Assembly: GCA_027493955.1 (NCBI GenBank)
Contig: JAOSJT010000001.1
Span: forward strand, 759,131-823,130
Direction: 5' to 3'
DNA from: Bacteroidia bacterium
Lineage (GTDB): Bacteria > Bacteroidota > Ignavibacteria > SZUA-365
DNA length: 64,000 nt
Below the pieces are notes generated by a model, which ran no database searches, was not told where the DNA came from, and saw only the letters and a list, made by a program, of their open reading frames with translations. Positions 51,365 through 62,399 of this stretch are shown here, in pieces. The position numbers and the translations under genes were made by a program. Numbering within the stretch: position 1 is the stretch's first letter; the number at the start of each line of letters is the position of its first letter.

Positions 51365-51676
51365 ATGGCCAAAATCCGTGGTGATATCAAAATTGACATA
51401 GAGAAGTGCAAAGGTTGCGAACTCTGTGTCGTTGCCTGTCCGCAGGAGGCGCTGACACTCGCCAAGGATATCAACAAGCAGGGCTATCATTATGCCGTGC
51501 TTATCGAGGATGTCTGTACCGGGTGCACCAATTGCTCTATGGTCTGCCCGGACGCGATCATCACCGTGTACCGCGAAGACAAAAAATCCGGCTCGAAAGT
51601 CCCCGTAGCGGAGATCCGCAACGTCACCGGCGATATCCGTATCCAGGTGGGCGTTGAGGAAGCCGCACAGAACTGA
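51365..51676 (+). CDS. korD: 2-oxoacid:ferredoxin oxidoreductase, ferredoxin-like delta subunit
   Basis: A 103-residue protein with two [4Fe-4S] motifs: CKGCELCVVACPQEA at residues 17-30 or so and CTGCTNCSMVCPDAI further on. It passes electrons from the KorAB catalytic core to free ferredoxin. GGAGTGATCCT lies before the ATG. It is the first gene of korDABC; the D-A-B-C order with separate small subunits is common for 2-oxoglutarate:ferredoxin oxidoreductases. Confidence 0.9.
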   Translation: MAKIRGDIKIDIEKCKGCELCVVACPQEALTLAKDINKQGYHYAVLIEDVCTGCTNCSMVCPDAIITVYREDKKSGSKVPVAEIRNVTGDIRIQVGVEEAAQN

Positions 51677-51741
51677 ACCGGCGCTTCCCGTGACATTAAT
51701 TCGAACAATCCGCGCATAGCCTGACAAGGAGTTTACCAATT

Positions 51742-52809
51742 ATGGGTGAATTACGACTGATGAAGGGAAACGAAGCGCTCGCAGAAGCGGCGATTCGTGC
51801 CGGAATGGATGCCTATTTCGGCTACCCCATCACACCGCAGTCCGAAGTTCTCGAATACCTTACCCGCGAAGCGTATAATCGCACGCAATGCACTATTCTT
51901 CAGGCGGAAAGTGAAATCGCCTCCATCAACATGGTGTACGGCGCGGCCGGTGCCGGCCAGCGCGTCATGACCACCTCATCCAGCCCCGGCATCAGTCTCA
52001 TGCAGGAAGGCATTTCCTACATTGCCGGTGCCGAACTGCCCTGCCTTCTTGCCAATGTCAATCGCGGCGGCCCCGGTTTGGGGACCATTCAACCGTCGCA
52101 GGGTGATTATTTCCAGTCGGTCAAGGGTGGGGGACATGGCGACTACCGTCTCATCGTTCTCGCTCCCGCCACCGTTCAGGAAATGGCGGATTTCGTGCTG
52201 GATGGCTGGTTGCTCGCGGAGAAATACCGCAATCCCGTTCTCATCCTCACGGACGGGGCGCTGGGACAGATGATGGAAAAAGTGGAATTACGCGATCAGG
52301 AGCCACGCGGTAATCGTCCCGTACCCTCCTGGGCGACCGTCGGCAAGGATGCCGGTCGCGAGCGCAACATCATCACTTCGCTGTTCATTCAGCCGGAACA
52401 GATGGAACAGGTGAACTTGCGTCTGCAAGCCAAATACCGCGAGATCGAAAAGAATGAGATTCGCGTCCAGGAAATTGAAACCGCCGACGCCGATTTCGTT
52501 CTGGTTGCATACGGACTTTCAGCCCGCATCAGCCGCAAGGTCGCCGAAATCCTCCGCGCCGAAGGCATAAAGGTCGGACTCATCCGGCCCATCACACTCT
52601 GGCCGTATCCCTATCAAACCATCGCCGACGCTGCCGCACACGCGAAGGGCTTTTTCGTGCTCGAACTCAACGCCGGACAAATGGTCGAAGACGTGCGCCT
52701 CGCCGTCAATGGTCGTTGCCCTGTCGAGCAGTACGGCCGTATGGGCGGGATCATTCCCTCGCCCGAGGAAGTGGCGGAGGTCGCCAGGAAGATGTACTCG
52801 AAACTCTAG
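51742..52809 (+). CDS. korA: 2-oxoglutarate:ferredoxin oxidoreductase, alpha subunit
   Basis: A 355-residue subunit. GNEALAEAAIRAGMDAYFGYPITPQSE at the N-terminus is the pyrimidine-binding domain with the Y-P-I-T-P motif, and MVYGAAGAGQRVMTTSSSPG is also conserved. The length and lack of a fused gamma domain point to the KorA/VorB type rather than pyruvate oxidoreductase. With KorB it decarboxylates 2-oxoglutarate (or branched 2-oxoacids) to the CoA thioester and reduces ferredoxin; in FCB bacteria this can replace 2-oxoglutarate dehydrogenase in the TCA cycle. AAGGAG precedes the ATG. Confidence 0.88.
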   Translation: MGELRLMKGNEALAEAAIRAGMDAYFGYPITPQSEVLEYLTREAYNRTQCTILQAESEIASINMVYGAAGAGQRVMTTSSSPGISLMQEGISYIAGAELPCLLANVNRGGPGLGTIQPSQGDYFQSVKGGGHGDYRLIVLAPATVQEMADFVLDGWLLAEKYRNPVLILTDGALGQMMEKVELRDQEPRGNRPVPSWATVGKDAGRERNIITSLFIQPEQMEQVNLRLQAKYREIEKNEIRVQEIETADADFVLVAYGLSARISRKVAEILRAEGIKVGLIRPITLWPYPYQTIADAAAHAKGFFVLELNAGQMVEDVRLAVNGRCPVEQYGRMGGIIPSPEEVAEVARKMYSKL

Positions 52810-52823
52810 GAGACGACACAGAT

Positions 52824-53621
52824 ATGGAACACACCCAGGAAATTGAACACAACTACGAAGGGCTGGATGTCGTCTGTGAACGTCCCTCCACCCTCGTTGA
52901 CGCGCGCATGCACTACTGCCCCGGCTGCGGCCACGGCGTGGCGCATCGCATCATCATGGAAGCGGTACAGGAACTTGGCATTCAAAGCAACACCGTCGGA
53001 GTCGCTCCCGTCGGTTGCTCCGTTTTCGCCTATCACTACATGAACATCGACATGCAGGAAGCAGCGCACGGACGCGCTACGGCCGTGGCCACCGGCATCA
53101 AGCGCTGCCTGCCCGACAAATACGTCTTTACCTATCAGGGTGACGGCGATCTCGCAGCCATCGGTACGGGCGAGACACTGCATACCGTCAACCGCGGCGA
53201 AAATATTCTCATCGTCTTCATCAACAACGCCATTTACGGCATGACCGGCGGCCAGATGGCTCCGACCACACTGATCGGCCAGAAGACTTCGACATCGCCG
53301 TACGGTCGCGAAACGCAGTTCAACGGCAATCCGCTGAAAATCACCGAACTGCTTGCCATGTTGCCCGGTGCGTTCTACGTTACGCGCCAGGCGGTGAATA
53401 CGCCGGTGAATGTGCGCAAGGCAAAAAAAGCCATCATGAATGGCTTCAAATGGCAGGCCTTGAAAAAAGGTACCTGCTTCGTCGAAATCGTGTCCAACTG
53501 CCCGACAAACTGGGGTATGAAGCCCGTCGAGTCCAACAAATGGCTCGAGGAACACATGCTCCCGTTCTTCCCGCTGGGCGATCTGAAAGTACCGTCAAAG
53601 GAGGATCTCGAGAATGGTTGA
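52824..53621 (+). CDS. korB: 2-oxoglutarate:ferredoxin oxidoreductase, beta subunit
   Basis: A 265-residue ThDP subunit. CPGCGHGVAHRI near residue 32 provides two cysteines toward a [4Fe-4S] cluster, a third Cys is in APVGCSVF, and the ThDP/Mg site is TYQGDGDLAAIG with FINNAIYGMTGGQ. ATG 52824 follows TAGGAGA. It overlaps korC by eight bases, so translation is coupled. The single CoA-type core without a fused ferredoxin fits KorB. Confidence 0.9.
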   Translation: MEHTQEIEHNYEGLDVVCERPSTLVDARMHYCPGCGHGVAHRIIMEAVQELGIQSNTVGVAPVGCSVFAYHYMNIDMQEAAHGRATAVATGIKRCLPDKYVFTYQGDGDLAAIGTGETLHTVNRGENILIVFINNAIYGMTGGQMAPTTLIGQKTSTSPYGRETQFNGNPLKITELLAMLPGAFYVTRQAVNTPVNVRKAKKAIMNGFKWQALKKGTCFVEIVSNCPTNWGMKPVESNKWLEEHMLPFFPLGDLKVPSKEDLENG

Positions 53622-54168
53622 GGAAGTGATTTTCGCAGGCTTCGGCGGCCAGGGTGTACTGTCCATGGGACAGGTGCTCTCCTACGCCGGCATGATCGAG
53701 AACCGTGAAGTGTGCTGGATGCCGTCCTACGGACCTGAAATGCGCGGCGGTACGGCAAACTGCATCGTTACCATCAGCTCCAATGAAATCAGCAGCCCCA
53801 TTATCGGGCGCTTCGACACCGTCGTTGCCTTGAATCAGCCGTCGCTGGACAAATTCCAGGATGCCGTCAAACCCGGCGGCACGCTGATCTACGACAGCAC
53901 CAACATCATCGATCCTCCCACGCGCACGGATGTGGATATCGTTCCCATTCCGGCGAGCGAGGAAGCGGTGAAGTTGAAAAACACCAAAATCATGAACATG
54001 ATCGTGCTGGGGGCCTTCATCGAGAAACGGAAAACCGTACAGATTGCCACCGTTCTCGAAGCATTGAAAAAAGTGCTGCCCGAGAGGCACCATCATCTCA
54101 TTCCACTGAACGAGACCGCCCTCTTGCGTGGCGCCGAACTCGCCCAGTCTTCTGTACCGGTCGCGTAA
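53614..54168 (+). CDS. korC: 2-oxoglutarate:ferredoxin oxidoreductase, gamma subunit
   Basis: A 184-residue gamma subunit with the family's opening VIFAGFGGQGVLSMGQVLSY and WMPSYGPEMRGGTANC, which helps bind CoA and closes the active site. NTKIMNMIVLGAFIEKRK is also typical. It is the same fold as IorB, 19-residue signature included, but the sequences are clearly distinct. It ends korDABC and is followed by a hairpin with a T run. Confidence 0.9.
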   Translation: MVEEVIFAGFGGQGVLSMGQVLSYAGMIENREVCWMPSYGPEMRGGTANCIVTISSNEISSPIIGRFDTVVALNQPSLDKFQDAVKPGGTLIYDSTNIIDPPTRTDVDIVPIPASEEAVKLKNTKIMNMIVLGAFIEKRKTVQIATVLEALKKVLPERHHHLIPLNETALLRGAELAQSSVPVA

Positions 54169-54219: not shown

Positions 54220-54333
54220 CGTTCAAAAAGGCTGTGCTGCCCGAAAAGGGATGCGATTTCGCATTGTTCCCGGTCATTTTCTTCCGTAAGATGGTGGTGT
54301 GTAACATTTGGCTGTGTAATGTGTTGTTCTGAT

Positions 54334-55083
54334 ATGATGCGACGTTCTACCGCCACGACCACTCTCTTCTTCCTCCTGACGCTCACCATCGCGGCACAGC
54401 CCGCGCGTTTCGCTACGCTGTCGCACGACTTCGGTGAAATGGGACAGAATGAGGCTCGCAGCTTCGTGTTCCTTGTCACCAACACCGGGGCGGACGTCCT
54501 GCGTCTCACGCCCCCGCGCGCCAGTTGCGGCTGCACCGCGGTGCTGCTGAGCCAGTCGGAATTGCAGCCGGGGGATTCCGCCCGCATCGAAGTGGAATTT
54601 CGCAGTGGCCCCGCCATGCTCGGGCCCGTGAATAAATCCGTCCAGGTGGGGCATCTCGTCAACGGCAAGGAGCGCGAGCTCGCCACTTTGCGTATTCAGG
54701 CGGACGTGGTCGGCATTGTGCGCTACGATCCCGGTATGATCGAGTTTCGTAGCGTCCTGGGGAAGGAATTCCGCAGCACAGTCCGGCTCATTTCCCGAAG
54801 TGAGCAGCCAATTCGTATAACGGAAATCACCCCGGCGCTGATGATGTATGCGGACAGCTCCGACGGCAATACCTATCATGTGGACCATGTGGTGGCGATG
54901 CCTTTCGAGGATGTGCGTGTCAAGCCCTCTGCGGAAGAAATCCCTCCCGGCGGGGAAGTGGAACTCGAGTGTGTCTTTACACTCAGGAACAAGGGACAGC
55001 TCAACGGCGCCATTCGCGTCGCTCTGGACCGTTCGGAAATTCGCATCCCGGTAGTGGGCGTCATCCTCCGGTCAGGCCCGTAG
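54334..55083 (+). CDS. DUF1573 exported protein, copy 1
   Basis: About 249 residues. A signal peptide (TTTLFFLLTLTIAAQ) precedes a DUF1573 Ig-like domain. FATLSHDFGEMGQNEARSF and the cysteine motif RASCGCTAVLLS (conserved C-G-C-T) mark the family, common in Bacteroidota. A second beta domain completes the protein (PPGGEVELECVFTLRNKG). The function is unknown; related domains bind or scaffold at the cell surface. ATGs at 54319, 54334 and 54337 are possible, and 54334 gives the best signal peptide. The next gene encodes a paralogue. Confidence 0.8.
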   Translation: MMRRSTATTTLFFLLTLTIAAQPARFATLSHDFGEMGQNEARSFVFLVTNTGADVLRLTPPRASCGCTAVLLSQSELQPGDSARIEVEFRSGPAMLGPVNKSVQVGHLVNGKERELATLRIQADVVGIVRYDPGMIEFRSVLGKEFRSTVRLISRSEQPIRITEITPALMMYADSSDGNTYHVDHVVAMPFEDVRVKPSAEEIPPGGEVELECVFTLRNKGQLNGAIRVALDRSEIRIPVVGVILRSGP

Positions 55084-55176
55084 CTCCCGCGGAGGAGAAG
55101 GAAAGGCCCCATTGTCAGAAAAAACCGGAATCGTTATATTTACATATTGATCACAATTTGAACTGGAGATTGTTCA

Positions 55177-55983
55177 ATGAGAACCGCCTCAACCCTGATA
55201 GCAGCAGCCCTGCTCATCTTCGGACTCTCCGCCACCGCGCACGCGCAGGCGACGGACAACTCGTGCTTCGCACTCGAAGGCACTTCGGATTACTATTTTG
55301 GTGAAATAGATCAAAACGCCACCGTCGAACATACCTTCGTTTTCAAGAACAATTGCGACCGTGTCATCGAAATCGGTTCCGCCCGCGCAAGCTGTGGCTG
55401 TACCGCGGCCGTCATTTCGGAGAATTCCATCGCTCCGGGCAAGGAAGCCAAGATTCAGGTCAAGTTCACCCCGCCGAAAGGCACACGCGGCCGTACCACC
55501 AAAACAGTGAGTGTGTACCTCAAAGACGAGCAGCAGCCGCATACCGTCATCCGCTTCTCCGCGACCGTACAAACCGACATTGACGTACAGCCGCAGTACA
55601 TACAGCTCATGGGCGGCGAAGTCGGCAAGGAAATCAGCGGCGTGACGACTGTCAAGAATGTCTCGCAAAAAGAGTTGAACATTGCCGACGTCAGCGTGAG
55701 CATGACCACCTATGCCGACACGTCCGGCACGGGCAATGTTGTGGGCCTGCCCCTTACCAACGCGCGCGTCTCACCGGAGCGCTTCACGCTCAAGGCCGGC
55801 GAGAGCAGAGACGTGACGGTGTTTGTCACTCCGCAGTACAAAGGTCAGATCAGCGGTGCCGTGCGCCTCAAAGCCGGCGATAACGAGGGCATGATTCAGG
55901 TGTTCGGCGTCATTCGCGATGCCACACCGAACCTGCAGCGCAGCGACGCCGGACAAATGTTGAATTCGGCACCCGGACGGTAA
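55177..55983 (+). CDS. DUF1573 exported protein, copy 2
   Basis: A 268-residue paralogue of the preceding gene. The signal peptide ends LSATAHAQ, FGEIDQNATVEHTFVFKN is the start of the domain, and ARASCGCTAAVISENSIAPG carries the C-G-C-T motif. The second half repeats the same beta pattern (GVTTVKNVSQKELNIADVS). The ATG at 55177 lies after GGAGATTG. Two copies in a row suggest an old tandem duplication, or two subunits of one surface complex. Confidence 0.85.
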   Translation: MRTASTLIAAALLIFGLSATAHAQATDNSCFALEGTSDYYFGEIDQNATVEHTFVFKNNCDRVIEIGSARASCGCTAAVISENSIAPGKEAKIQVKFTPPKGTRGRTTKTVSVYLKDEQQPHTVIRFSATVQTDIDVQPQYIQLMGGEVGKEISGVTTVKNVSQKELNIADVSVSMTTYADTSGTGNVVGLPLTNARVSPERFTLKAGESRDVTVFVTPQYKGQISGAVRLKAGDNEGMIQVFGVIRDATPNLQRSDAGQMLNSAPGR

Positions 55984-56001: not shown

Positions 56002-56274
56002 ATGAAGCGAATTATCCCCGAATACACCGCGCTGATTGATATCATTCAGGACGCTCTGGACAAGGAAAAAGATGCGCAGGCCTTTTATCTGGAGGCCGCC
56101 GACATGGCACAGGCCGCCGAGGTGCGCGATTTTCTCCTCGAAATGGCGGAGATGGAACGAAGTCACACCGAGTTGCTCTCCCGCAAACTGGAAGCGCTGA
56201 AATCCAATCAGGTCGTGATGGACGGCATACTTTCCAGCTTCGAAGACGATCCGCGTCCGGACGAAGCGGAGTAA
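56002..56274 (+). CDS. Half-size ferritin-like (rubrerythrin-type) protein
   Basis: A 90-residue all-helical protein. ALDKEKDAQAFYLEAADMA gives the first helix with Glu ligands, and LEMAEMERSHTELLSRKLE the second with an E-x-x-H motif. Full rubrerythrin or ferritin domains need four helices and twice this length, so two chains would have to combine to make the diiron site, as in encapsulated ferritins and other half-ferritins. No encapsulin gene is visible nearby. AAGGAGAAAGG precedes the ATG, and a terminator follows at once. Confidence 0.75.
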   Translation: MKRIIPEYTALIDIIQDALDKEKDAQAFYLEAADMAQAAEVRDFLLEMAEMERSHTELLSRKLEALKSNQVVMDGILSSFEDDPRPDEAE

Positions 56275-56296
56275 CGAGGTCATTCCGTACTACGCA

Positions 56297-56328
56297 CAGC
56301 GGCTCCCGAGTGGAGCCGCTGTTGTTTT
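56297..56328 (+). terminator. Terminator after the ferritin-like gene
   Basis: CAGCGGCTCC (56297-56306) pairs perfectly with GGAGCCGCTG (56312-56321), followed by TTGTTTT. It closes the DUF1573-ferritin-like transcript. Confidence 0.9.
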
Positions 56329-56893: not shown

Positions 56894-58471
56894 ATGATCG
56901 AAAGCCCAGCCATCCGCGCCCGTGATGTCGACGACATGCTTACGCGGTATCATTTCTCAAGCGAAACCCGCCGTATTATCGAGGAGGAACATCTGCTTCC
57001 ACCGGCGCTGTTGCATCGCCTGCATTTGAATTTCGCGGAGCAGTCGCGCTTCTTTCGTACCGATGCCTACTACTTTTCAGGGAAGACCTATTACAACGGA
57101 CTCGCCGGTTTCCGGGAGATTATCGGCGTGCTCACAGCGAATGGCATTGAAATCGGCGATATCACAGAGCGCGAATTCTTCATCGAAGTGTACCGTTTTC
57201 TCGCCACCAAGCACGTGCTGAACTCCATCGACTGGAGTAATTACGAGGAAGACACGATGTATCAGCTGGTCTTTCCCCAGCCCGGAATGATTCCCCGTGA
57301 CGAAGTACAAAAGTACATCAACGCTGCCACGGATGAAGAGCGCCGCATGGTCGTCGAGGAGTACACCCGGAAGACGAATCCGCACGACGGCAAGCAGATG
57401 CTCAACAAGCCATGGTTCCTCAATGACGATGGCCAGTTGGAAATCCTGCAGGGCTGCCAGCATAAATATCCGCCCATCGCGCTGATCTTCGATCAATTCA
57501 CCCAGAATTGCTTCGCCTTCTGCACCTATTGCTTCCGGCATGCGCAGGTGCGCGGGGATGAGGACATGTTCGTGCAGGACGACGTTGAACAATTGCTCAT
57601 GTATCTCCGTCAGCACAAGGAGATTACCGACATTCTGATCACGGGAGGTGATGGCGGTTTTATTCACTATGATCGCCTTGCCGAGTACGTGCTACCGTTG
57701 CTGTCGGATCCGACCTTGGCGCATATACGCACGCTGCGCTTCGGTTCACGCGCGTTGACCTTCCATCCGGAACTGCTTCTGACCGACGAATTCGAGAACA
57801 TCCTCTCGTTGCTGCAGCAATGTGTGGATAGTGGCGTGCAGGTCATCTGGGTGGCGCATCTGTCTACGCCGCGCGACATACTCAATCCCGGGACCATTGC
57901 GGCGATACGTCGCCTGAAGGCGCACGGAGTCGCGATCAGGAGTCAGAGCCCCATCATGAAGCACATCAGTCTGTTCACGCATCCGGACGGGACGGTGGAC
58001 ATCGACCGTTCAGCGCAAAACTGGATAGACCTCGGCAATCTGCTCGGCATGCTCGGTGTGGGATTCCACTCCATGTACTGCGCGCGACCCACCGGCGAGC
58101 ACCATTACTTCACCGCGCCGCTTGCCGACATTCACAAGATTTTCAGCAAGGTGTACAAATCTCTGTCGTCGGTCAACCGTCCGTCGCGCTACATCACCAT
58201 GACCTCGTCGGCGGGCAAAATATCCCTCCTCGGCACCGCGGAGGTGAACGGAGAGACGGTCTTCGCCCTGAAATTCAACGAAGGGCGCAATATGGACTGG
58301 ATGGACCGGGTGTATCTCGCGCGTTACGACGAACAGGAGAACACCATAGAGAAGCTCTTGCCGTATCAGGGCGAGAAGCATTTCTACGAGGACGAATGTG
58401 AGGAGATTGAGCGTCGTCTCGAGGCAGCACTGCGACACGAAATGGCCAGGGCCGGCAACAATGATCAATAA
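56894..58471 (+). CDS. KamA-like radical SAM, PLP-dependent amino acid 2,3-aminomutase
   Basis: A 525-residue protein, about 100 longer than classical lysine 2,3-aminomutase. The radical SAM cluster motif is CFAFCTYCFRHAQ (C-x-x-x-C-x-x-C) near residue 210, and the Arg two residues after the last Cys corresponds to the substrate-carboxylate Arg of KamA. The PLP Lys is in MTSSAGKISLL. By manual alignment the two Asp residues that hold the lysine side-chain amine are not conserved (MYCARPTGEHH and ITMTSSAGK instead of C-D and V-D-A-P), so the substrate is probably not lysine. It starts the operon, and its end overlaps the CoA-transferase alpha gene by 11 bases. Confidence 0.8.
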   Translation: MIESPAIRARDVDDMLTRYHFSSETRRIIEEEHLLPPALLHRLHLNFAEQSRFFRTDAYYFSGKTYYNGLAGFREIIGVLTANGIEIGDITEREFFIEVYRFLATKHVLNSIDWSNYEEDTMYQLVFPQPGMIPRDEVQKYINAATDEERRMVVEEYTRKTNPHDGKQMLNKPWFLNDDGQLEILQGCQHKYPPIALIFDQFTQNCFAFCTYCFRHAQVRGDEDMFVQDDVEQLLMYLRQHKEITDILITGGDGGFIHYDRLAEYVLPLLSDPTLAHIRTLRFGSRALTFHPELLLTDEFENILSLLQQCVDSGVQVIWVAHLSTPRDILNPGTIAAIRRLKAHGVAIRSQSPIMKHISLFTHPDGTVDIDRSAQNWIDLGNLLGMLGVGFHSMYCARPTGEHHYFTAPLADIHKIFSKVYKSLSSVNRPSRYITMTSSAGKISLLGTAEVNGETVFALKFNEGRNMDWMDRVYLARYDEQENTIEKLLPYQGEKHFYEDECEEIERRLEAALRHEMARAGNNDQ

Positions 58472-59171
58472 AATTGTATCCTCGGCCGCGGCCGCTGTAG
58501 CCGACGTCTTCGATGGAGCTACGGTGCTCATCAGCGGTTTCGGTGAAGCGGGCAGTCCCATCGAACTGATTCACGCGCTGGTGGATCGGGGAGCCCGGGA
58601 ACTGACCATCGTCAGCAACAATACCGGCAGTGGTCATGTCGGTCTCGCCTCTCTGATCGAACAGGGCTGCGTTCGGAAAATGATCTGTTCCTTTCCCAAG
58701 ACGGCGAACTCCGTGGTCTTCCCCGCATTGTATGAGCGCGGCGACATCGAGCTCGAACTCGTTCCGCAGGGCACCATGGCTGAGCGCATCCGTTGCGGCG
58801 GTGCGGGGATACCCGCGTTCTATACGCCGACCTCTGTGAACACACCTCTGGCCGAGGGAAAGGAACATCGCGATTTTGATGGTGTACCGCACGTGCTTGA
58901 ACATGCCATTCGCGCGGATTTTGCTTTGGTGAAATGCAGACGTGCCGATCGGTACGGAAATCTCGTGTATAACAAGACAGCACGGAATTTCGGCCCGGTG
59001 ATGTGTACCGCCGCCCGGGTGACGGTCGTGCAGGCCGGCGAGGTCGTTGATGTCGGAGTGATCGATCCGGAATGTGTCGTGACACCCGGAATTTTCGTGC
59101 AGCGCGTGGTGCATGTCGCCCATCCGCAGGATGAATCCACACTCGTCGCCGAAGGCAGGAGGTACCCATGA
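58461..59171 (+). CDS. 3-oxoacid CoA-transferase, alpha subunit (PcaI-like)
   Basis: A 236-residue class I CoA-transferase alpha subunit. FDGATVLISGFGEAGSPIEL opens the domain, LTIVSNNTGSGHVGLASL and LELVPQGTMAERIRCGGAG are the CoA-binding and G-x-G-G-A-G-like segments, and NLVYNKTARNFGPVM is the family-typical later motif. Sequence and length fit PcaI/AtoD, with PcaI (3-oxoadipate) the nearest by eye. It needs the beta subunit directly downstream, with which it overlaps by four bases. Confidence 0.88.
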   Translation: MINKIVSSAAAAVADVFDGATVLISGFGEAGSPIELIHALVDRGARELTIVSNNTGSGHVGLASLIEQGCVRKMICSFPKTANSVVFPALYERGDIELELVPQGTMAERIRCGGAGIPAFYTPTSVNTPLAEGKEHRDFDGVPHVLEHAIRADFALVKCRRADRYGNLVYNKTARNFGPVMCTAARVTVVQAGEVVDVGVIDPECVVTPGIFVQRVVHVAHPQDESTLVAEGRRYP

Positions 59172-59836
59172 ACGACAAACACGTTGGCTGGGACATGCGC
59201 GACGTCGCCCGCAATGTTGCCCATGATATTCCCGACGGCTCCTATGTCAATCTCGGCATAGGTATTCCGGAGCTTGTGGCGGGTTTTGTACCCGAAGGAC
59301 GCGAACTCCTGTACCACACCGAGAACGGTCTGCTGGGAATGGGCCCCGCAGCGGAAACGGGGAAGGAAGACCCCGAGCTTATCAACGCGGGCAAGAAATG
59401 CATCACCGCTCTGCCCGGCGCGTGTTACTTCCACCATGCCGACAGCTTCATGATGATACGCGGCGGGCACATCGATTACTGCGTGCTCGGCGCGTACCAG
59501 GTGTCCCAGGAAGGCGATCTGGCCAATTGGTCCACAGGGGAGCCCGGCACTGTACCCGCTGTGGGAGGCGCCATGGATCTTGTCGCCGGCGTGCGCAACA
59601 TTTTTGTCATCACCCAGCACTGCACCAAGTCCGGTGAATCCAAAATCGTGCGTAGGTGCAGTTATCCGCTGACAGGCAAGGGTGTGGTGACACGCATCTA
59701 TACCAATTACGCCACTCTGGATGTGCGCGAACGACGACTGTTCGTGCGCGAACTCGCACCCGGCGTGGATATGGATTTCCTCCGCGGCGTGACGGCGGCG
59801 GAGCTGCATGAAGCAACCGCGTCAGCACGCGCGTAG
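59168..59836 (+). CDS. 3-oxoacid CoA-transferase, beta subunit (PcaJ-like)
   Basis: A 222-residue class I CoA-transferase beta subunit. It contains VNLGIGIPELVAGFVPEG, the catalytic Glu in YHTENGLLGMGP (E-N-G), and GDLANWSTGEPGTVPAVGG. It resembles PcaJ most closely, the 3-oxoadipate:succinyl-CoA transferase beta subunit. The reaction moves CoA from succinyl-CoA or acetyl-CoA onto a 3-oxoacid. It is followed after 14 bp by an aminotransferase gene. Confidence 0.88.
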   Translation: MNDKHVGWDMRDVARNVAHDIPDGSYVNLGIGIPELVAGFVPEGRELLYHTENGLLGMGPAAETGKEDPELINAGKKCITALPGACYFHHADSFMMIRGGHIDYCVLGAYQVSQEGDLANWSTGEPGTVPAVGGAMDLVAGVRNIFVITQHCTKSGESKIVRRCSYPLTGKGVVTRIYTNYATLDVRERRLFVRELAPGVDMDFLRGVTAAELHEATASARA

Positions 59837-59850
59837 ATCTGAGAGACACC

Positions 59851-61200
59851 ATGACAACGAACAACAGTGAAGCCATCTACACCAAGGCCTGCGAAGTGCT
59901 TCCGGGTGGTGTAAGCCGAAACACCGTGTACCGCCGTCCCCATCCGCATTACGTGGAACACGCGGCCGGTTGCCTGATCACCGATATCGAGGGAGTGACG
60001 CGCCTCGATTTCGCAAACAACATGGCGGCGCTGATCCACGGCCACGCGCATCCGGCGATTGTGGAAGCGGTGACCGCACAACTGCAGCGCGGAAGTGCCT
60101 ATACGATGGCTTCGGGTATAGAGGTCGATTTTGCGGAATTATTGCGGGATCGAACTCCGGGATTCGAAATGCTGCGCTTCGTGAATTCCGGCACCGAAGC
60201 CGTCATGGCAATGATCAAGGCCGCCCGCGCTTTTACGGGACGTCCAAAAATCGCGAAAGCGGAAGGGGCGTATCATGGCACCTACGATTTCGCCGAAGTC
60301 AGTCAGGTGGCCAATCCCGGAAATTGGGGCGATATCAGCAATCCGAACAGCGTACCGTTGGCCTTCGGCACCCCGCAGGGCGTACTCGATGATGTGGTGA
60401 TTTTTCCGTACAACGATGTCGAGCGGACCCTGGCCATACTCGACCGCCACGCCGGGGAACTCGCCTGCGTACTCATCGACCCCGTGCCGCATCGCGTGGG
60501 TCTGGTCCCCGGCACCGCTGATTTTGTCGAAGCGCTCCATGCCTGGACCCGTCGCAACGACGCGCTGCTGTGCTTCGATGAGGTGGTAACCTTCCGTGTT
60601 GCCTACGGCGGCGCACAGGAGAGGTACAGTGTCCGTCCCGATTTGACCGCACTCGGTAAAATTATCGGCGGCGGCTTCCCTGTTGGCGCACTTGCCGGAC
60701 GTGCGGATGTCATGCAGGTGCTCGATCCGCGCCAGGCGAAGTTGCCCTTCCCGCATTCCGGTACGTTCTCCGCCAATCCGATCACCATGACCGCCGGCTA
60801 CACCGCTATGACGCTCTTCGATCACGCCGCGGTACAGCGTCTCAACGCCCTGACCGCACAGGCCATCGGGCGCATCGAGGAAGCGATTCGATTGGCGAAC
60901 GTCCCGGTTTCCATTACCGGCGCAGGTTCCATGTTCCGAATGCACCTTTCCGAGGTAGCGCCGGCCACCTATCGCGAAGCGTGGCAACCGAAAGAGACGC
61001 AAAAAGTGATCGAAGAACTCCTGGAATTCATGTACACCGAGGAGCACATCCTCATGATCAACACCTTTGCCTGTATGTTTTCCACCGTGATGGGAACGGC
61101 AGAGGTGGACCGCCTCGCTGAAAGCCTCCTCCGCACGTTTCGTGCGCTGAAACCGAACATCGATGCCGTCGCCCGACGGGCAGGAGAATCGCATTCATGA
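59851..61200 (+). CDS. Class III aminotransferase, GSA/beta-amino-acid type
   Basis: A 449-residue PLP enzyme. FVNSGTEAVMAMIKAARAF is the phosphate-binding region, LLCFDEVVTFRVAYGGAQ holds the PLP-ring Asp and TALGKIIGGGFPVGALAG the PLP Lys. The opening LPGGVSRNTVYRRPHPHYV resembles glutamate-1-semialdehyde aminomutase and the beta-phenylalanine aminotransferases of the same subgroup, which act on beta-amino acids. Next to a 2,3-aminomutase, a beta-amino acid substrate is the obvious guess. The stop overlaps the thiolase start by four bases. Confidence 0.85.
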   Translation: MTTNNSEAIYTKACEVLPGGVSRNTVYRRPHPHYVEHAAGCLITDIEGVTRLDFANNMAALIHGHAHPAIVEAVTAQLQRGSAYTMASGIEVDFAELLRDRTPGFEMLRFVNSGTEAVMAMIKAARAFTGRPKIAKAEGAYHGTYDFAEVSQVANPGNWGDISNPNSVPLAFGTPQGVLDDVVIFPYNDVERTLAILDRHAGELACVLIDPVPHRVGLVPGTADFVEALHAWTRRNDALLCFDEVVTFRVAYGGAQERYSVRPDLTALGKIIGGGFPVGALAGRADVMQVLDPRQAKLPFPHSGTFSANPITMTAGYTAMTLFDHAAVQRLNALTAQAIGRIEEAIRLANVPVSITGAGSMFRMHLSEVAPATYREAWQPKETQKVIEELLEFMYTEEHILMINTFACMFSTVMGTAEVDRLAESLLRTFRALKPNIDAVARRAGESHS

Positions 61201-62399
61201 AAGACGTCTATATCTGCGATGCCATTCGCACGCCCATCGGACGCCACGGCGGCGCACTCGCAACCGTTCGGCCGGACGATCTCGCCGCTGCGGTACTCCG
61301 CGGTATCCTCGACCGCAATCCTTCCTTACCGCACGACCGCATCAGTGACGTCATTCTCGGCTGTGCCAATCAGGCAGGGGAGGACAACCGCAATGTGGCC
61401 CGCATGGCGGTGTTGCTGGCCGGCTTGCCTGACAGCGTACCCGGCATGACCGTGAACCGCCTCTGCGGTTCAGGAATGGATGCGGTGGGGCGTGCCGCGC
61501 AGGCCATTCGTGCGGGTGAGGCGGATGTGGTGCTGGCGGGAGGCGTCGAGAGCATGAGCCGCGCGCCGTTCGTTATCGGGAAGGCAGCGGAGGCCTTCTC
61601 CCGTAACGTGCAGATGTACGACACCCACCCGGGATGGCGCTTCGTCAATCCATCCCTCGAGACGCTGTATGGTACGGATTCCATGATGCAAACCGCACAG
61701 AATCTGGCGACCGACTTCGACATCTCGCGCGAAGATCAGGATGCTTTCGCGTTTCGCAGCCAGGAAAAAGCGGCAGCGGCGCAAACTGATGGCCGCCTCG
61801 CGGATGAAATCATTCCGATCACCATCCCTCAATCCAGAGGCAACGCCCTCTGCGTCGATCGCGACGAGCACCCGCGTGCGACGTCCATGGAAAAACTCGC
61901 CACGCTCAGATCGCTGAGCGGACCAGCGGGAAGTATCACCGCAGGTAATTCTTCGGGCATTAATGATGGCGCCGCGGCTCTGTTGCTCGCATCGGAAGAC
62001 GCGGTCAGGAGCTACGGACTTACCCCACGAGTAGTCGTACGGGGAATGGCCGTCGCTGGAGTCCCTCCGCGCATCATGGGTATCGGACCCGTACCGGCGA
62101 CGAAGTCGCTTCTCGCCAGGCTCGGCATGGCACTCGGGCAGATGGATGTGATCGAGCTCAACGAAGCCTTCGCCGCGCAGGCCCTGGCCTGTCTGCGCGT
62201 ACTTGATATACCCGACGACGATGCACGTGTCAATCCCCGAGGCGGCGCTATAGCGTTCGGTCATCCGTTGGGCATGAGCGGTGCGCGGCTGATCGTCACA
62301 GCCACGTCGCAATTGGTGCATACCGGTGGCAGAAATGCCCTGTGCACCATGTGCATTGGCGTTGGGCAGGGGATTGCCATGGTGATCGAACGGGTGTAG
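61197..62399 (+). CDS. Acetyl-CoA acyltransferase, PcaF-like 3-oxoadipyl-CoA thiolase
   Basis: A 400-residue type I thiolase. The nucleophile Cys is in MTVNRLCGSGMDAVG, and the second Cys lies in CTMCIGVGQGIAM with the catalytic His in NPRGGAIAFGHPLGMSGAR; GCANQAGEDNRNVARMA is strongly PcaF-like. PcaF splits 3-oxoadipyl-CoA to succinyl-CoA and acetyl-CoA. It completes the operon with the CoA-transferase and aminotransferase. There is no obvious terminator after it. Confidence 0.88.
   Translation: MKDVYICDAIRTPIGRHGGALATVRPDDLAAAVLRGILDRNPSLPHDRISDVILGCANQAGEDNRNVARMAVLLAGLPDSVPGMTVNRLCGSGMDAVGRAAQAIRAGEADVVLAGGVESMSRAPFVIGKAAEAFSRNVQMYDTHPGWRFVNPSLETLYGTDSMMQTAQNLATDFDISREDQDAFAFRSQEKAAAAQTDGRLADEIIPITIPQSRGNALCVDRDEHPRATSMEKLATLRSLSGPAGSITAGNSSGINDGAAALLLASEDAVRSYGLTPRVVVRGMAVAGVPPRIMGIGPVPATKSLLARLGMALGQMDVIELNEAFAAQALACLRVLDIPDDDARVNPRGGAIAFGHPLGMSGARLIVTATSQLVHTGGRNALCTMCIGVGQGIAMVIERV

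Follow-up and report, generated by a model that had tools for sequence, protein, structure and literature searches.

A divergent KamA-type radical SAM protein without the lysine-binding aspartates and a proposed bacterial lysine route via 3-aminoadipate

The aminomutase gene and its operon

The stretch of DNA that we analysed, 64,000 nucleotides in all and called the window here, carries on its forward strand an uninterrupted open reading frame at positions 56894-58471. It starts with ATG and encodes 525 residues. We describe the product as a KamA-type radical SAM/PLP protein on the evidence of the reading frame, an AF2 model and the fold match to lysine 2,3-aminomutase (2A5H), and propose that it is an L-alpha-aminoadipate 2,3-aminomutase. 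Existing family models recognized the protein only weakly. It scored 82.9 bits with TIGR00238 (KamA family, cutoff 199.2), 58.1 bits with TIGR03820 (lys_2_3_AblA, cutoff 525.4), 52.5 bits with TIGR04368 (Glu_2_3_NH3_mut, cutoff 650) and 50.8 bits with the EpmB model (cutoff 369.3), so that membership was met for none of these families; the PF04055 score, 23.9 bits, was also under its cutoff of 29.5. The C206/C210/C213 motif, with fold matches to 2A5H and to further radical SAM enzymes, nevertheless places the protein in the radical SAM superfamily, and the PLP lysine and carboxylate-binding arginine of a KamA-type 2,3-aminomutase were found as K442 and R215. The Asp residues at 293 and 330 expected of a lysine 2,3-aminomutase (TIGR03820) were not (Arg398 and Thr/Ser435).

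Among PDB sequences, only 2A5H matched clearly. It was also the best fold match (E = 2.8e-14, probability 1.00) of the AF2 model, which had a pLDDT of 89 and a pTM of 0.91. The global TM-score against 2A5H was modest (0.52/0.65), in line with the presence of additional regions in the protein. A first-pass annotation of this DNA had put the protein about 100 residues above KamA in length, a good estimate: the chain is 109 residues longer (525 versus 416 for 2A5H). The additional residues make up an N-terminal extension, an insert ahead of the radical SAM core and a different C-terminus, which lacks the C-terminal Cys cluster of KamA. In a tree, the protein fell in a well-supported clade separate from EpmB and the AblA-like proteins. 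This tree did not include any authentic glutamate 2,3-aminomutase, and a search of the class to which Desulfuromusa belongs found none over the TIGR04368 cutoff. On sequence grounds, the 525-residue product is a divergent, remote KamA-type radical SAM relative.

The gene is followed by four others on the same strand. Subunit A of a 3-oxoacid CoA-transferase (58461-59171; TIGR02429, 331.9 bits, cutoff 128.5), proposed to act on 3-oxoadipate, has a start that overlaps the aminomutase stop. Subunit B (59168-59836; TIGR02428, 284 bits, cutoff 243.55) overlaps subunit A by an ATGA. Next come a HemL-like class III aminotransferase (59851-61200; PF00202), the proposed 3-aminoadipate transaminase, and a 3-oxoadipyl-CoA thiolase (61197-62399; TIGR02430 pcaF, 646.6 bits, cutoff 597). 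Stop and start codons overlap at three of the four junctions. The transaminase scored under the HemL cutoffs; its best PDB match was 6k8h, and the beta-transaminases 2yku and 4ao9 were also matched. The best PDB match of the thiolase was the beta-ketoadipyl-CoA thiolase 6pca. In lysine fermentation, transamination of 3-aminobutyryl-CoA has been proven for a HemL-like enzyme (PMC3149608).

A terminator-like hairpin (56296-56322, forward strand), an 11-bp stem followed by a T-rich tail that we recognized by consensus match only, lies between the operon and the genes upstream. These encode a 2-oxoacid:ferredoxin oxidoreductase (ferredoxin-like, alpha, beta and gamma; 51365-54168), two adjoining DUF1573 proteins (54319-55983) and, after this pair, a 90-residue rubrerythrin-like protein (56002-56274).

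Residues at the substrate-binding positions

We collected 80 orthologs from species-representative genomes, which with the window protein gave 81 sequences. The orthologs were 57-74% identical and came from several phyla. The cluster motif C206-x3-C210-x2-C213 and R215, two residues past the last cysteine and equivalent to the substrate carboxylate-binding R134 of KamA, are encoded at 57509-57538; Lys442, the equivalent of the PLP lysine Lys337, is encoded at 58217-58219. These five residues were invariant or nearly so (72-81 sequences per count), with Lys442 invariant, which bears out the first-pass reading that the cluster cysteines, the carboxylate-binding Arg and the PLP Lys are kept.

The two positions that contact the lysine side chain in KamA differ. 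Arg398 (codon 58085-58087) stands at the position of Asp293 and was Arg in 81/81 sequences; its neighbour Ala397 was Ala in 80/81. Thr435 (codon 58196-58198) stands at the position of Asp330, Thr in 72 sequences and Ser in 9. Nowhere in the ortholog group was either position acidic. The placement of Thr435 was the same in every alignment that we made, and the first-pass annotation had likewise placed a Thr, seven residues ahead of the PLP Lys, in the second Asp position. For the first position it had named Ala-Arg; the loss of the Asp stands, but the register was refined, as it is Arg398 and not Ala397 that occupies the site. A shallow hhalign comparison of the orthologs with eight close KamA sequences did put Ala397 at Asp293, at the price of two compensating gaps. 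A deep hhalign comparison, in which a related paralog clade was added to the ortholog set and the whole was aligned to twelve diverse KamA-family sequences, was ungapped over the motif and much stronger (E = 8.9e-39); it placed Arg398 at Asp293 and Thr435 at Asp330. A MAFFT alignment with 33 diverse sequences was also ungapped over the motif and agreed on Arg398. We therefore set the Ala397 register aside, because the deeper profiles align without gaps. EpmB and the AblA-like proteins, members of the same superfamily, keep Asp in the Asp293 column and carry Glu (EpmB) or Asp (AblA-like) at Asp330.

As judged from these alignments, a basic and a hydroxyl residue stand where KamA has the acid pair that binds the ammonium group. 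This pattern is not due to chance, since it is kept across orthologs of several phyla that are only 57-74% identical, and a conserved Arg in place of Asp293 reverses the charge in a way that suits a carboxylate side chain.

Other KamA-type proteins also vary at these positions. A second clade, about 37% identical, is represented in the window genome (L082, G000:C1:2631860-2633041, reverse strand) as well as in roughly 27 more of the genomes sampled from the phylum (L085-L112). All ten members that were aligned carried Arg in place of Asp293 and Ser in place of Asp330, and its substrate is perhaps also acidic. The clade has no conserved neighbours; the proximity of one paralog to an aminoadipate-semialdehyde dehydrogenase gene in G216 was not repeated in the other genomes examined and was discarded. 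A further KamA-like protein (L213, G003:C1:141156-142214), with Gln at the Asp293 position and Asp at 330, is possibly another substrate variant.

Lysine genes and the operon in other genomes

The order aminomutase, CoA-transferase A, CoA-transferase B, HemL-like transaminase, 3-oxoadipyl-CoA thiolase was complete in 57 of the 60 loci with enough flank to be counted. The records that show this order were titled Bacteroidota, Ignavibacteriae, Cloacimonadota, Desulfuromusa, Krumholzibacteriia, Sumerlaeaceae and Alphaproteobacteria. Departures from the order were seen in L075 (Rhodobacteraceae), with aminomutase and transaminase only, and in L079, where the CoA-transferase is followed by the thiolase with no transaminase between.

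Genes that convert lysine to aminoadipate adjoin the operon in several lineages. In Cloacimonadota (L046 and L038), saccharopine dehydrogenase and lysine-ketoglutarate reductase (LKR) genes lie upstream on the same strand, and in L046 they directly abut the operon; the LKR best matched human alpha-aminoadipic semialdehyde synthase in the PDB (E = 1e-77) and the saccharopine dehydrogenase carries both Pfam domains. In Prolixibacteraceae (for instance L007), a protein scoring 800.4 bits with NF050084, the model for L-piperideine-6-carboxylate/aminoadipate-semialdehyde dehydrogenase (cutoff 730), is encoded downstream of the thiolase, as is saccharopine dehydrogenase. In Desulfuromusa (L067), the genes ahead of the operon encode an NF050084 dehydrogenase (801.6 bits), an amino-acid ABC transporter and a LysR regulator. 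Other operon-bearing genomes hold LKR, saccharopine dehydrogenase and/or the NF050084 dehydrogenase in separate clusters. The three different arrangements suggest that the operon is tied to lysine-to-aminoadipate genes.

Regulator and transporter genes also occur around the operon. An XRE-cupin regulator gene is found in L035 (7374-7925) and 12 other loci, about 0.6 kb ahead of the aminomutase start and on the same strand in most of the 13, and is possibly responsive to lysine or aminoadipate. LysR-type regulators lie upstream in alphaproteobacterial and Desulfuromusa loci (L074, L079, L067, L075), and both Cloacimonadota loci have an amino-acid permease/SLC12-like transporter gene after the thiolase (L046 13556-15766; L038 10718-12943). 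A transaminase-like gene after the Desulfuromusa operon was considered as a lysine 6-transaminase and rejected; it scored as the ornithine/acetylornithine type, under the cutoffs.

We compared gene content between operon-bearing genomes and Bacteroidota-group genomes without the operon. LKR was present in 38/50 of the former versus 65/245 of the latter (Fisher 1e-10). When LKR was present, glutaryl-CoA dehydrogenase was absent from 25/38 genomes with the operon but from only 1/65 without it (Fisher 2e-13), the pattern expected if the glutaryl-CoA branch is replaced. Because the Fisher tests take no account of common descent and many of the genomes with the operon are incomplete MAGs, these P values are descriptive. 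Three isolates, Maribellus sp. YY47, Draconibacterium sediminis and Ancylomarina salipaludis, have LKR, the dehydrogenase and the operon without glutaryl-CoA dehydrogenase. The NF050084 dehydrogenase by itself was only weakly enriched (32/50 versus 127/247), and we dropped its genome-wide presence as strong evidence because it is too common in the phylum. It was absent from 18 of the 50 operon-bearing genomes, both Cloacimonadota included, where oxidation of the aldehyde would need another enzyme.

The window genome encodes LKR and saccharopine dehydrogenase as convergent genes side by side near C1:1.40 Mb (L204), and an NF050084 dehydrogenase (807 bits) at C1:1490236-1491663. None of these lysine genes adjoins the aminomutase operon. 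As this genome also encodes glutaryl-CoA dehydrogenase, the proposed route may be redundant there.

Candidate substrates and a proposed lysine route

The first-pass annotation had inferred, from the loss of both lysine contacts, a substrate with a negative side chain. The loss is confirmed and the inference is supported: Arg398 at Asp293, the operon context and the phylogenetic profile all support an acidic substrate. The last two suggest, independently of the residues, that the acidic amino acid is L-alpha-aminoadipate, an inference without an assay or a liganded structure behind it.

Glutamate is likewise acidic, and the residue pattern alone cannot tell it from aminoadipate. In the known glutamate 2,3-aminomutase, Lys and Asn take the place of the two Asp residues, a comparable charge swap that resembles the Arg398/Thr435 pair. 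The operon might then turn beta-glutamate by transamination into 3-oxoglutarate, whose activation and cleavage would yield malonyl-CoA and acetyl-CoA, or beta-glutamate might serve as an osmolyte. We consider this unlikely: the protein reached only 52.5 bits of the 650 set by Glu_2_3_NH3_mut, the thiolase is of the 3-oxoadipyl-CoA type, and it would go unexplained why genes for LKR, saccharopine dehydrogenase and aminoadipate-semialdehyde dehydrogenase are linked to the operon. The enzymes would share an acidic substrate, inferred for the window protein, but it is this group that is linked to lysine-to-aminoadipate genes.

The enzyme could also act on another amino acid, a neutral one for example, with the thiolase and CoA-transferase taking the matching 3-oxoacid and the lysine genes being secondary neighbours. 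The CoA-transferase and transaminase families are indeed broad, and their lack of substrate specificity counts against the aminoadipate reading itself; moreover, 6 of the 50 operon-bearing genomes have neither LKR nor the NF050084 dehydrogenase. Such a substrate nonetheless seems improbable, because the operon is joined in three different ways to genes for making aminoadipate, and a lysine route agrees with the distribution of LKR and glutaryl-CoA dehydrogenase across genomes. That the enzyme is still a lysine 2,3-aminomutase, its beta-lysine passing via 3-oxo-6-aminohexanoate, after activation, to 4-aminobutyryl-CoA and acetyl-CoA, would accord with the lysine-degradation context and with the nearest solved structure, but is very hard to sustain when both lysine-binding Asp are gone, Arg398 at Asp293 would repel the ammonium group, the lys_2_3_AblA score is 58.1 bits against 525.4, and LKR and the dehydrogenase would compete for lysine and not feed the aminomutase.

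We thus regard it as likely that the protein is a radical SAM/PLP L-alpha-aminoadipate 2,3-aminomutase acting in a lysine route, with substrate and turnover inferred in the absence of a biochemical test. In the proposed route, LKR, saccharopine dehydrogenase and L-piperideine-6-carboxylate dehydrogenase would convert lysine via saccharopine to alpha-aminoadipate. Arg398 and Thr435 may grip its side-chain carboxylate while a 5'-deoxyadenosyl radical and PLP shift the amino group from C2 to C3. The HemL-like transaminase would convert the resulting 3-aminoadipate to 3-oxoadipate, the CoA-transferase, possibly with succinyl-CoA as CoA donor, would form 3-oxoadipyl-CoA, and the PcaF-like thiolase would cleave it to succinyl-CoA and acetyl-CoA. 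Alternatively, CoA activation may come first and transamination after. The chemistry of each step can be read from the enzyme families. What the aminomutase acts on is an inference, and so is the order in which transamination and CoA transfer occur.

Parts of this scheme have precedents. The radical SAM/PLP fold, the CxxxCxxC motif, the equivalents of R134 and K337 and the expected 2,3-amino shift are those of KamA/AblA, whereas Asp293 and Asp330 are exchanged for Arg398 and Thr/Ser435, the score is far under the family cutoff and the operon is different. The Kat variant of lysine fermentation (PMC3149608) also combines a KamA-type enzyme with a HemL-like beta-transaminase, a CoA-transferase and a thiolase, but it uses lysine 2,3- and 5,6-aminomutases, Kdd and Kce, and the Kat substrate is 3-aminobutyryl-CoA. 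With the saccharopine/glutaryl-CoA pathway, the proposed route would share LKR, saccharopine dehydrogenase and aminoadipate-semialdehyde dehydrogenase; its 2-oxoadipate, glutaryl-CoA and crotonyl-CoA steps would be swapped for 3-aminoadipate and 3-oxoadipyl-CoA, bypassing glutaryl-CoA dehydrogenase. We found no paper on a 3-aminoadipate route or an aminoadipate aminomutase in the open-licence literature.

The operon probably encodes an apparently undescribed, widespread bacterial lysine route via 3-aminoadipate and 3-oxoadipyl-CoA. The route would begin with a new radical SAM activity and take the place of the glutaryl-CoA branch where glutaryl-CoA dehydrogenase is absent. If true, it would extend the KamA-type radical aminomutases by a new substrate and by an active site of reversed charge, and would give many Bacteroidota, Ignavibacteriota, Cloacimonadota and others a full lysine route without glutaryl-CoA dehydrogenase. 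It would also correct the labels KamA-family protein, HemL and generic thiolase that a set of genes now carries, and 3-aminoadipate and 3-oxoadipyl-CoA are of interest for bio-based adipate.
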